Positions 7,020 to 59,154 of a DNA stretch of 64,000 nt are shown here, piece by piece (position 1 is the stretch's first letter; each line of letters begins with the position of its first letter). Below the pieces are notes generated by a model. That model saw only the letters and a program-made list of their open reading frames with translations. It did no database searches and was not told the DNA's origin. The translations under genes were made by a program, and so were the position numbers. The DNA is taken from contig JAHEXY010000002.1 in assembly GCA_023251875.1 (NCBI GenBank), forward strand, positions 371,591 through 435,590, written 5' to 3'. The DNA is from Bacteroidota bacterium. Its GTDB lineage: Bacteria; Bacteroidota; Bacteroidia; JAHEXY01.

Positions 7020-7075
7020 ATATTTTTAGTTATTAGTTGTTCGTTATTGGTTGTTCGCAAAAAGGCAATAAAAAT
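7020..7075 (-). repeat. AACAACTA-type G-poor leader of pdhB
   Basis: Read in the sense of pdhB this is a run of AACAACC, AATAACG, AACAACT and AATAACT units ending AAAAATAT directly before the ATG. The same style of tract precedes sucD, atpH and atpG in this window, which suggests a translational leader rather than random simple sequence. Confidence 0.55.
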
Positions 7076-24887: not shown

Positions 24888-24950
24888 CCCTCACCCTGCC
24901 TATGCGAAACAAGTTCGGGACAGGCTCTCTCCCAAAGGAGAGGGTAAGTT
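24888..24950. repeat. CTCTCC/GGAGAG palindromic repeat, copy at 24.9 kb
   Basis: CTCTCC (24927-24932) pairs with GGAGAG (24937-24942). The stretch begins CCCTCACCCTGCC and ends in GTTTGGAATTTT. The copy at 55423-55463 has the same outer parts in the opposite orientation. About 25 bp of extra sequence lie between the CCTGCC part and the palindrome here. Confidence 0.65.
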
Positions 24951-25335
24951 TGGAATTTTTAATAATCTCTTAACTTATATAAACGCTAATGAATTAAATT
25001 ATTTTTCGAATAAATTATTTGGCGAAAATAAAAGGCGCGTTCGTCAAAACCAGTTAATGAAGTTTTTAAATATATTTTCTGAAATCGCTTAACCGGTTTT
25101 TGGTGTCGAATATGTTGTCATAAATATTTTTTCTATGTTGAGCAAATGGGTATCTTTACATGCAAATAAGTGCAAAGAGTTCTTTATAAATTTTTACAAA
25201 GCTAAAATAGTTAGTGGGTTAATCGTTGGACATTAAAAAACTACACTTACAATAGATTGATATGTATTTGAATACGAAGCAGTTTCAAATCCTTCTCTTA
25301 CAGCAATAAAATAACTATGCGTAATGTAAAAAACG

Positions 25336-41639: not shown

Positions 41640-41735
41640 AGTTTAGTTGTTGGTTGTTCGTTGTTCGTTATTAGTTATAAGTTATTAGTTGTTAGTTGTT
41701 AGTTGTTAGTTGTTAGTTGTTAGTTGTTTTGAAAT
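41640..41735 (-). repeat. Heptamer tandem repeat forming the sucD leader
   Basis: In the sense of sucD this is a run of AACAACT/AACTAAC heptamers (about six near-perfect copies at 41694-41730), degenerating to AATAACG and AACAACC units and ending AACTAAACT directly before the ATG. The tract has almost no G on the sense strand. Slippage could change its length and hence expression. Confidence 0.75.
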
Positions 41736-46220: not shown

Positions 46221-46254
46221 ACCTCTCCCCAACCCTCTCCAAAGGAGAGGGAGG
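46221..46254. repeat. CTCTCC/GGAGAG palindromic repeat, atpE-atpF gap
   Basis: ACCTCTCCCCAACCCTCTCC followed by AAAGGAGAGGGAGG; the second CCCTCTCC pairs with GGAGAGGG. Nearly identical copies lie at 46800-46834 and 59121-59154, all in the same orientation relative to the genes. Confidence 0.8.
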
Positions 46255-46799: not shown

Positions 46800-46834
46800 A
46801 CCTCTCCCCAGCCCTCTCCGAAGGAGAGGGAGAA
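46800..46834. repeat. CTCTCC/GGAGAG palindromic repeat, atpF-atpH gap
   Basis: Same family as 46221-46254, with G in place of A at two sites (CCAGCCCTCTCCGAAGGAG). It begins one base after the atpF stop. Confidence 0.8.
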
Positions 46835-46891: not shown

Positions 46892-46936
46892 TGGTTTTTC
46901 TAACAACGAGCAACTAGCAACGAACAACTAACGAAA
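46892..46936 (+). repeat. AACAACTA-type leader of atpH
   Basis: Units AACAACG, AGCAACT, AGCAACG and AACAACT lead to AACGAAA directly before the atpH ATG. Compare the leaders of sucD, pdhB and atpG. Confidence 0.55.
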
Positions 46937-49240: not shown

Positions 49241-49245
49241 TTATT

Positions 49246-49320
49246 CGTTATTTGTTGTTAGTTATTAGTAGATCGCCTCAAATCGAACAACTAATAACTA
49301 ACAACTAACAACTAAAATAT
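49246..49320 (+). repeat. AACAACTA leader of atpG with upstream inverted copy
   Basis: ACTAATAACTAACAA inside the leader (about 49286-49310) is a perfect 15-bp inverse of TTGTTAGTTATTAGT just upstream (about 49255-49271). The sense-strand tract of AACTAAC units ends AACTAAAATAT at the atpG ATG. The pair can fold into a hairpin between atpA and atpG. Confidence 0.6.
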
Positions 49321-50253
49321 ATGGCCAATTTAAAAGAAATACGTGTTCGTATTGCTTCGGTTAATTCAACCAAGCAAATTACAAGTGCAATGAAAATGGT
49401 TTCTGCAGCAAAATTGCGTAGAGCACAAGATGCTATTGTACGTATGAGGCCTTATGCTCAAAAGTTGAGAGAAATTTTAGATAATGTAAGTGCTTCTGTT
49501 GATAGTTCCGAAGGTAATTCGTATTCTGTTAGCCGACCGGTAAAAAATGTATTGATTATTGCTGTTACCTCTAACAGAGGTTTGTGTGGAGGCTTTAACA
49601 GCAACGTGATGAAAGCTACTCGTAATTTAATTGCTACGAAATATGCTGATCAAAATATTGCAGGCAACGTAAAAATAATTACCATTGGCCGTAAAGCATT
49701 TGAATATTTTAAGAATAATAATTACAAGGTTGTTGCGAATCACTCTGATGTTTACGATAATATTCAATTTGCATCTGTTGCTGCTATTGCAGAAAAAATA
49801 ATGCAAGATTTTTCTAAAAAAGAATACGATAAAGTTGAATTGATTTACAACCAATTTAAAAATGCAGCAGTACAAATTTTAAAAGTAGAGCCGTATTTAC
49901 CGGTAATTTCATCTCAATCTTCTGCAGTTGTTGATAAAACAGGTGGGCATGTGGGCCAAGCGGTTTCTCCCCTTCGGGGAGACGGAAGAGGGGTAGATTA
50001 TATTTTTGAACCCAGTACCGAATACATTGTACAAGATTTAATTCCTCGCTCATTAAAAGTGCAACTCTACAAAGCTGTGCTCGACTCCAACGCTGCTGAA
50101 CATGGCGCCCGTATGACGGCCATGCACAAAGCAACCGACAATGCCACCGATATGGTGAAGCAATTGAAACTCCATTACAACAAAGCCCGCCAAGCCGCCA
50201 TTACAAAAGAAATTTTAGAAATTGTGGGTGGTGCTGAGGCCTTGAATGGGTAG
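49321..50253 (+). CDS. atpG: F1Fo ATP synthase subunit gamma, with in-frame repeat insertion
   Basis: This 310-residue central-shaft subunit is longer than the common ~290. The N-terminal helix (LKEIRVRIASVNSTKQITSAMKMVSAAKLRRAQ), the SNRGLCGGFN loop and the C-terminal helix (MTAMHKATDNATDMVKQLKLHYNKARQAAITKEILEIV) are intact. Residues about 207-225 (TGGHVGQAVSPLRGDGRGV) are coded by a palindromic repeat of the CTCTCC/GGAGAG type (49966-49982), inserted without disturbing the frame just before the conserved DYIFEPS strand. It is the last gene of the cluster; the stop is 7 bp from the convergent gene. Confidence 0.95.
   Translation: MANLKEIRVRIASVNSTKQITSAMKMVSAAKLRRAQDAIVRMRPYAQKLREILDNVSASVDSSEGNSYSVSRPVKNVLIIAVTSNRGLCGGFNSNVMKATRNLIATKYADQNIAGNVKIITIGRKAFEYFKNNNYKVVANHSDVYDNIQFASVAAIAEKIMQDFSKKEYDKVELIYNQFKNAAVQILKVEPYLPVISSQSSAVVDKTGGHVGQAVSPLRGDGRGVDYIFEPSTEYIVQDLIPRSLKVQLYKAVLDSNAAEHGARMTAMHKATDNATDMVKQLKLHYNKARQAAITKEILEIVGGAEALNG
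49946..49998. repeat. Palindromic repeat within atpG coding sequence
   Basis: TCTCCCC (49966-49972) pairs with GGGGAGA (49976-49982) around TTC; the surroundings read GCGGTTTCTCCCC and GACGGAAGAGGGGTAGATT. It adds about 18 residues to the gamma subunit in a region without family conservation. Confidence 0.7.
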
Positions 50254-50260
50254 AATTTTC

Positions 50261-51148
50261 TTATAAACTATTTTCATAGAGCTTTTCTACTAAAGGGCAA
50301 GTAATCCATAATACAATACTTGCGTCTTTGGGCAATAATTCTTGATCTAATACATCAAGTAAATGAATGGTATGAGTGGGATCTAAATAGAAATTAGTTT
50401 TTTCGTAAAATAATTTTGCCTTTTCTGTATATGTTTTATATGAGTATTCTAATGGTTTATAAAGAGAGAGATTTTTATTGGAACCATATTTAAAATTGAG
50501 ATACGAAAAAGTACGCTTGCCTCCTGTAGTTACTCCTGCTAAATAATGTTTCTGATCCTCTTTAGGGATAAGGGCTAAAAAACAATCTGCCATATTTCCG
50601 GAAGCAATTGGAAAAAGATGTATCACTTGCCTTTCTTCCTCTCTCCTTTGGGGAGAGGTTAGGAGAGGGGTTTGCTCAATACATTCCTTAAAAACAGATT
50701 CATAAGGATTCGAATTTTTTAAATCAATATGCCCTCCTATTCCAATAGTTGTGTATTGGCTTCCACCAAAATATTTGTAATACAAAAATTGTAGCAACAG
50801 TTTCCAAAACGGAGCCTGAATTACTTTTATACCTTCTTTGTTAAGGTATAAATTCCTCCTCGCCTCAGTATAAGGATTGGTAGGCATTTCTTGTTCTAGA
50901 AAAAGAAATTTAATATCCCCTTCTCCCACGGGAGAAGGGCTAGGGATGAGGGCTTGTAAAATATGAAAAGTATGTGCTCCTGGGTTAGACAGTGCAACAA
51001 GCGTTTTTATATTTTTATGTTCCTTAAAAAATTGTTGAAAACGAAATACTTTATTACCTCCTCCAGGTTTTATTAAATCGAGTCGTTTGGCAAATACGTT
51101 TTGGTATTTACCATATCCATTAGGTATTTGCTGTAGAGGACAAATCAT
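50261..51148 (-). CDS. Putative PLP-dependent enzyme-fold protein (ACC deaminase/D-cysteine desulfhydrase-like)
   Basis: This 295-residue protein looks like a divergent member of the fold-type II PLP enzymes related to ACC deaminase and D-cysteine desulfhydrase. FAKRLDLIKPGGGNKVFRF resembles the family's KREDL...GNKxRK motif, with the candidate PLP lysine at K33. LVALSNPGAHTFHILQA and PIASGNMADCFLAL stand in for the GAHSNH and glycine-rich phosphate-binding segments. Two palindromic repeats are read through in frame (residues 68-78 and 160-173). The repeats and weak motif conservation mean activity is doubtful. It starts 3 bp after the MscS gene stop. Confidence 0.55.
   Translation of the reverse strand: MICPLQQIPNGYGKYQNVFAKRLDLIKPGGGNKVFRFQQFFKEHKNIKTLVALSNPGAHTFHILQALIPSPSPVGEGDIKFLFLEQEMPTNPYTEARRNLYLNKEGIKVIQAPFWKLLLQFLYYKYFGGSQYTTIGIGGHIDLKNSNPYESVFKECIEQTPLLTSPQRREEERQVIHLFPIASGNMADCFLALIPKEDQKHYLAGVTTGGKRTFSYLNFKYGSNKNLSLYKPLEYSYKTYTEKAKLFYEKTNFYLDPTHTIHLLDVLDQELLPKDASIVLWITCPLVEKLYENSL
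50637..50671. repeat. CTCTCC/GGAGAG palindromic repeat within the PLP-fold gene, copy a
   Basis: CCTCTCTCCTTTGGGGAGAGG followed by TTAGGAGAGGGG; on the minus strand it reads as the same consensus found in the atp gaps. It encodes TPLLTSPQRREEER (residues 160-173). Confidence 0.75.
50917..50952. repeat. Palindromic repeat within the PLP-fold gene, copy b
   Basis: CCCTTCTCCC / GGGAGAAGGG (50918-50939) is a perfect inverted repeat around AC, similar to the copy at 33410-33429. It encodes IPSPSPVGEGD in the protein (about residues 68-78). Confidence 0.75.
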
Positions 51149-55422: not shown

Positions 55423-55463
55423 TTCCAAACTACCCTCTCCTTTGGGAGAGGGGCAGGGTGATG
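55423..55463. repeat. CTCTCC/GGAGAG palindromic repeat after the WDG-repeat gene
   Basis: CCCTCTCC / GGGAGAGGGG (55433-55452) with outer parts TTCCAAAC and CAGGGTGATGG. It is the reverse orientation of the copy at 24888-24950, sharing both outer parts. Confidence 0.75.
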
Positions 55464-59121: not shown

Positions 59122-59154
59122 CCTCTCCCCAACCCTCTCCAAAGGAGAGGGAGG
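59121..59154. repeat. CTCTCC/GGAGAG palindromic repeat between ctaB and coxIII
   Basis: This is nearly identical to 46221-46254 (AACCTCTCCCCAACCCTCTC then CAAAGGAGAGGGAGG). As in the atp cluster it lies between two genes that are probably co-transcribed. Confidence 0.8.

Follow-up and report, generated by a model that had tools for sequence, protein, structure and literature searches.

A triplex-type palindrome in the atpG gene of a Bacteroidota genome is one copy of a dispersed repeat family, probably spread by DUF559 endonucleases

Bacterial genomes have been known for more than two decades to contain triplex-forming repeats, and PIT elements are reportedly the class II intrastrand triplex motifs of Hoyne and Maher. 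In E. coli, the TM_ECO element is built from a pyrimidine arm, a short loop, a purine arm, a 3-nt second loop (TTA, CCG or similar) and a mirror purine tail, 31-37 nt altogether (Holder et al. 2015, PMC4666352). It is a high-copy, dispersed element that often occurs in inverted pairs, was reported to be always intergenic and without a mobility gene nearby, and its origin was called unclear; it folds as a triplex in vitro, with no sign of such folding in vivo in E. coli (PMC4666352). Rickettsia palindromic elements (RPE) are longer, 105-146 bp, and lie in frame in many protein genes (Ogata 2000; reviewed in Delihas 2007; PMC2229807). As for nucleases of the DUF559 family, E. coli YcjD has been predicted to be a Vsr-related PD-(D/E)XK nuclease (PMC1189080), and a role as a Vsr-type mismatch nickase was proposed for a Caulobacter DUF559 protein (PMC12907096). 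No earlier report of a repeat partner of DUF559 was found in the open-licence literature.

Here we describe a repeat inside atpG, the gene for the ATP synthase gamma subunit, in a Bacteroidota genome. We regard it as probable that the insert is one copy of a dispersed triplex-type family that is spread by DUF559 endonucleases, and that it has been kept in a tolerant loop.

Layout, dispersal and translation of the repeat

The window, meaning the whole stretch of 64,000 nt that was analysed, carries the repeat within the following features:

49321..50253, plus strand: atpG, ATP synthase gamma subunit, 310 aa, carrying the insert (Pfam PF00231 and alignments)
49945..49995, plus strand: about 17 extra codons compared with homologues, GGHVGQAVSPLRGDGRGV; left edge approximate
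49966..49972, plus strand: pyrimidine arm TCTCCCC, which stems with 49976-49982
49976..49982, plus strand: purine arm GGGGAGA, with the loop TTC at 49973-49975
49987..49993, plus strand: third block AGAGGGG, exact mirror of the purine arm, after the spacer CGGA at 49983-49986

The core at 49966-49993 thus reads TCTCCCC-TTC-GGGGAGA-CGGA-AGAGGGG. The initial annotation had called it a palindromic repeat, which is correct for the 7-bp stem and its TTC loop, but the element as a whole is not a plain palindrome and has the three blocks of a triplex-type motif. The same layout runs through the family: a pyrimidine arm, a TTY loop, a purine arm, a 3-nt spacer and a mirrored purine arm, 28-44 nt in total, with the second purine block present in nearly all copies. 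Among 127 tail-bearing hairpins, tail identity to the mirrored arm was 0.95, compared with 0.829 ± 0.007 when partners were shuffled, and 90 tails were perfect mirrors versus 7 perfect direct repeats. The third block was also read as a direct repeat, which would make it an alternative Watson-Crick partner of the pyrimidine arm; identity was then only 0.82 and this reading was rejected. Across the family, the tail letter opposite G was G in 712 of 731 positions, and the letters opposite A were 239 A, 21 T, 1 G and 1 C. These letters correspond to the triplets of an antiparallel purine-motif triplex, G.GC, A.AT and T.AT.

In sequence, the element conforms to class II intrastrand triplex motifs (PIT/TM elements), with Y-R-R blocks, a stem of 6-15 nt, loops of 1-6 nt and a mirrored third block; the arms of the atpG copy are 7 nt long. 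As a single strand, such an element could form a hairpin whose purine tail folds back into the major groove as a purine-motif intrastrand triplex, and the family, the atpG element included, may fold in this way in the cell. Neither the window nor the MITE-like subfamily matched any Rfam family. This one subfamily has inverted termini and covarying outer arms, which the atpG copy does not have, and a target-site duplication was not established. Its members are longer (TTCTAAAAATTACAATTT...core...AAATTTTTAGAA, for example at C11:724525 and C11:533297), and their outer arms vary yet stay complementary (GGGCAG/CTGCCC, GGGTAG/CTACCC, GGCTTT/AAAGCC); they may be MITE-like or a structured RNA.

A permissive rule gave 192 members in the 2.85 of 4.81 Mb that were covered, against none in block-shuffled sequence of this 33% GC genome; two of these calls (C15:87342 and 88134) turned out to be palindromes of the RAYT type and not triplex motifs, which lowers the true count slightly. 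The claim of a repeat element in atpG is borne out by this family. Around atpG at 109 other Bacteroidota loci (630 kb), three elements were found, none of them in an ORF, although the contrast with the genome itself is rough, given the stricter-tail rule and the conserved neighbourhood. Further copies lie in the window:

46222..46252, minus strand: element copy, intergenic, atpE/atpF
46801..46831, minus strand: element copy directly after atpF
50638..50670, plus strand: element copy translated (antisense) inside ORF 50261-51148
50917..50951, plus strand: second element copy translated (antisense) inside ORF 50261-51148
55433..55463, plus strand: element copy of the GGGTGATG-tail subtype with upstream AATTCCAAACT
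59122..59152, minus strand: element copy, intergenic
24927..24953, plus strand: weak or degenerate element copy, 6-bp arm with 1 mismatch

ORF 50261-51148 (minus strand), next to atpG, encodes 295 aa without a Pfam match and resembles an ACC deaminase-like PLP enzyme by eye only. A second, unrelated repeat family consists of heptamer arrays (TTAGTTG / CAACTAA at 49241-49315, 41640-41728, 7023-7057 and 46907-46931) and forms an inverted repeat between atpA and atpG.

The elements are not confined to intergenic DNA: 57 of the 192 lie in frame, in either orientation, inside ORFs that continue on both sides, the ORFs being called mechanically; among the 57, a few of the ATTACAATTTGTG subfamily that lie close to an ORF start may belong to untranslated leaders. 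The initial annotation had missed that atpG is only one host of many: in this genome dozens of genes carry the element in frame. Thirty host ORFs were scanned with Pfam; many had domains spanning the element or on either side of it, and in at least a dozen hosts the element fell within a single Pfam match. Hosts include MurF-Alr, ValS, NDH-2, MqnA, adenine deaminase, MiaB, an ABC-F ATPase, MetH, BioA, a class IV aminotransferase and RsmA (two copies each), IleS, RsmE, SufS, SufD and a heavy-metal P-type ATPase. Alignment to solved structures placed the host elements in variable loops. The net extra length differed from host to host (~+2 in SufS, ~+7 in RsmA and ValS, ~+12 in BioA), and a clean insertion of fixed length is therefore not general. 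Three paralogous secreted proteins of the DUF7948/SBBP type (C14:42674-45326, C7:51855-52014) each carry an inverted element pair ~100 bp apart, and all of these copies are translated.

The stop codons TAA, TAG and TGA all need a T followed by a purine. Homopurine and homopyrimidine arms contain no such step and are therefore without stop codons in all six frames. Whole elements were open in all six frames in 28 of the 57 coding copies and 22 of the 135 others, compared with 1.7% of random genomic 27-34-mers. The stop-free arms help explain why the repeat is tolerated in coding DNA, and a function is not required. Open in most or all six frames, the element would enter coding DNA more easily than ordinary DNA does, and copies there would be retained where the net change in length is divisible by three and the copy falls in a flexible surface loop.

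DUF559 genes between triplex palindromes

The genome has exactly three genes for DUF559 (PF04480, a Vsr-like PD-(D/E)XK nuclease), and all three lie between triplex palindromes. Two of the bracketing subtypes are private: CCCCCTT..AAGGGGG has five copies in 4.8 Mb, four of which surround one DUF559 gene, and the CCCCGC subtype (CCCCGCTGGCGGGG) has two copies genome-wide, one on each side of another. For the bulk family there is only one candidate nuclease in the genome, a DUF559 domain embedded in MetH. This domain occupies aa 1108-1211, in frame inside the activation domain of the MetH ORF (L068:14508-18728, minus strand; C11:755063-755630), and is flanked on either side by triplex elements. 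Motif-pattern sites also lay within 200 bp on both sides of five DUF559 genes in two other Bacteroidia genomes. Many DUF559 matches in other Bacteroidia also lie within ORFs of 1000-1400 aa, and a scan of viral contigs with one DUF559 protein found no relative.

The association extends to other taxa. Among 21 DUF559 loci, which were picked non-randomly for taxonomic spread from the upper tblastn matches and some of which are related (Deinococcus, Azospirillum, Picosynechococcus), 18 had a motif within 300 bp, 11 of them on both sides, and 3 had none; the shuffled control gave 4 of 210. The loci belong to Cyanobacteriota, Deinococcota and Pseudomonadota and were drawn from phage records and a plasmid collection, in which some entries are whole chromosomes filed as plasmids. 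In six long contexts, 24 motifs were found in 3.6 kb of DUF559 flank versus 38 in 227 kb elsewhere. E. coli K-12 ycjD (b1289) encodes a DUF559 protein, and a perfect TM_ECO lies 168 bp downstream of its end; Holder et al. 2015 (PMC4666352) do not name ycjD in their main text.

In a Sphingomonas parapaucimobilis plasmid (L277, 941-1387), a DUF559 gene between inverted triplex motifs splits the suf operon between sufB and sufC. In a Pseudanabaena galeata plasmid (L271, 18873-23738), DUF559 and two motif pairs are in frame in a 4.9-kb CDS, possibly the methyltransferase gene, between brxC and pglZ of a BREX-6 cluster.

The association itself is a correlation, and a strong one. It suggests that DUF559 could be the mobility enzyme acting on the palindromes. 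The minimal mobile element envisaged here would consist of a small gene for a Vsr-like nuclease with its own triplex-type palindromes on either side, and the endonuclease, encoded between cognate copies, would probably spread the palindromes, also alone. We find it fairly likely that DUF559 nucleases and class II triplex palindromes together form one widespread family of minimal mobile elements, present at least in Bacteroidota, Cyanobacteriota, Deinococcota and Pseudomonadota including E. coli K-12, which also disperses palindromes on their own and, in this bacterium, has seeded dozens of proteins with translated copies, AtpG among them.

The motifs bracketing a gene could also be sites into which DUF559 genes preferentially insert, and not the substrate of the enzyme. 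DUF559 would then be a homing-type nuclease whose gene enters pre-existing triplex palindromes as a safe landing site, the palindromes themselves spreading by other means, for example template switching by the replication fork on triplex-forming sequence. Such behaviour would fit the DUF559 domains found inside host genes (MetH here, the 4.9-kb CDS in P. galeata) and the net insert length that varies among hosts, and triplex motifs have been linked to genome instability (PMC4666352). We nevertheless consider it unlikely, though worth weighing, since the private subtypes occur almost only at one DUF559 gene each (4 of 5 and 2 of 2 copies genome-wide), which speaks for co-mobility and not for landing in a common repeat.

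The repeats might also be REP elements moved by RAYT (Y1_Tnp, tyrosine) transposases, with an incidental link to DUF559. REP/RAYT is a known pairing of palindrome and enzyme in E. coli and Pseudomonas, and the genome has seven Y1_Tnp matches; of the three Y1_Tnp genes in covered contigs, however, two lie 4.3 and 21 kb from the nearest triplex element, and the one at C15:86699 is accompanied by a different palindrome of its own, TTGTCCCTAAAGGGACAA. None of these three was bracketed by triplex palindromes. With all three DUF559 genes bracketed instead, a RAYT mobiliser is improbable. The Y1_Tnp gene and TTGTCCCTAAAGGGACAA palindrome at C15:86699-88160 represent a separate REP/RAYT system in the same genome.

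The extended loop of AtpG

The AtpG ORF matches PF00231 over its full length (residues 3-308, E 6e-102, Pfam search), and the core lies within it, in agreement with the claim that the repeat is translated in frame inside atpG. From LP to DYIFEP the loop has 31 residues here, compared with 11-21 (mode 12) in 106 Bacteroidota homologues and a single outlier (L030) of 29 residues, whose different, non-repetitive sequence lacks such a repeat. No equally long loop made of repeat was found among the 106. By these alignments, which included relatives of the same class, some 16-18 residues are extra before DYIFEPS, close to the ~18 first proposed; the insertion event is deduced from distant homologues, this genome being the sole representative of its order in the collection. 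One point needs refining, namely how many of them the repeat encodes. The core supplies only ~10-11 residues (SPLRGDGRGV, ~216-225), and the GC-rich stretch upstream of it (GGHVGQA; GGTGGGCATGTGGGCCAAGCGG), having no second copy in 2.85 Mb, was left out of the element for that reason.

According to the initial annotation, the site of the insert is probably a loop on the surface of the globular part. Alignment with solved gamma chains gave a matching gap at query residues ~199-222, and in an AlphaFold model of AtpG (42 sequences; mean pLDDT 87.8) the single segment below 50 was residues 202-223, between the strand 185-193 and the C-terminal helix 233-309. The model and the alignment support that placement, the insert being predicted as a disordered surface loop. 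It would be neutral, a longer disordered loop from which no gain of function is expected, and atpG would be the carrier of one passenger copy in a tolerant site.

Chloroplast ATP synthase is regulated through a gamma-subunit loop. The extension in AtpG could similarly have been selected to regulate the enzyme, like the chloroplast and cyanobacterial gamma insertion in roughly the same loop, and the best local match to chloroplast gamma (6fkf_g, query 2-192) does stop in the insert region. This is very improbable, however: the peptide is the generic translation of a repeat found in dozens of unrelated proteins, and the insert is predicted to be disordered and is without cysteines or any other sign of a switch. 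The loop does vary naturally in both sequence and length (11-21 residues, one of 29). That it is just an ordinary length variant, turned GC-rich and palindromic through chance or slippage, can scarcely be right: the 28-nt core obeys every point of the family rule, with a 7-bp stem, a TTC loop and an exact mirror tail, the genome has 33% GC, and ~190 sister copies stand against none in shuffled sequence.

Relation to described elements

With a consistent partner nuclease, whose E. coli K-12 form is ycjD, the origin of triplex repeats becomes testable in ordinary laboratory strains, and the pairing of this little-studied DUF559 gene with such repeats in several bacterial phyla may explain how they have spread. 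Stop-free arms offer a simple reason why a repeat class can enter coding DNA, and would open a route for selfish DNA to add peptide loops to essential proteins outside Rickettsia.

The family shares block layout, high-copy dispersal and frequent occurrence in inverted pairs with PIT/TM elements. It differs from TM_ECO in that 57 of 192 copies are translated in ORFs and that copies bracket DUF559 genes. Like RPE, it places an in-frame palindrome in many conserved protein genes, where it is tolerated without obvious function; unlike RPE, its core measures 28-44 nt and has a homopurine/homopyrimidine mirror layout, so that it resembles RPE in its in-frame insertion and not in length or sequence. 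To our knowledge, RPE have no partner nuclease. With REP/BIME and RAYT (PMC3733652 for REP families) it has in common dispersed, small inverted palindrome pairs that bracket the gene of a DNA-cutting enzyme, but the partner is a Vsr-like PD-(D/E)XK nuclease of the DUF559 family in place of a Y1 transposase, and the palindrome has a third, triplex block. YcjD belongs to the nuclease family found here between palindromes, which has hitherto been described only as a putative nuclease or mismatch-repair nickase (PMC1189080, PMC12907096). By analogy, the element would work like REP/RAYT and, in coding DNA, like RPE, while being a member of neither.
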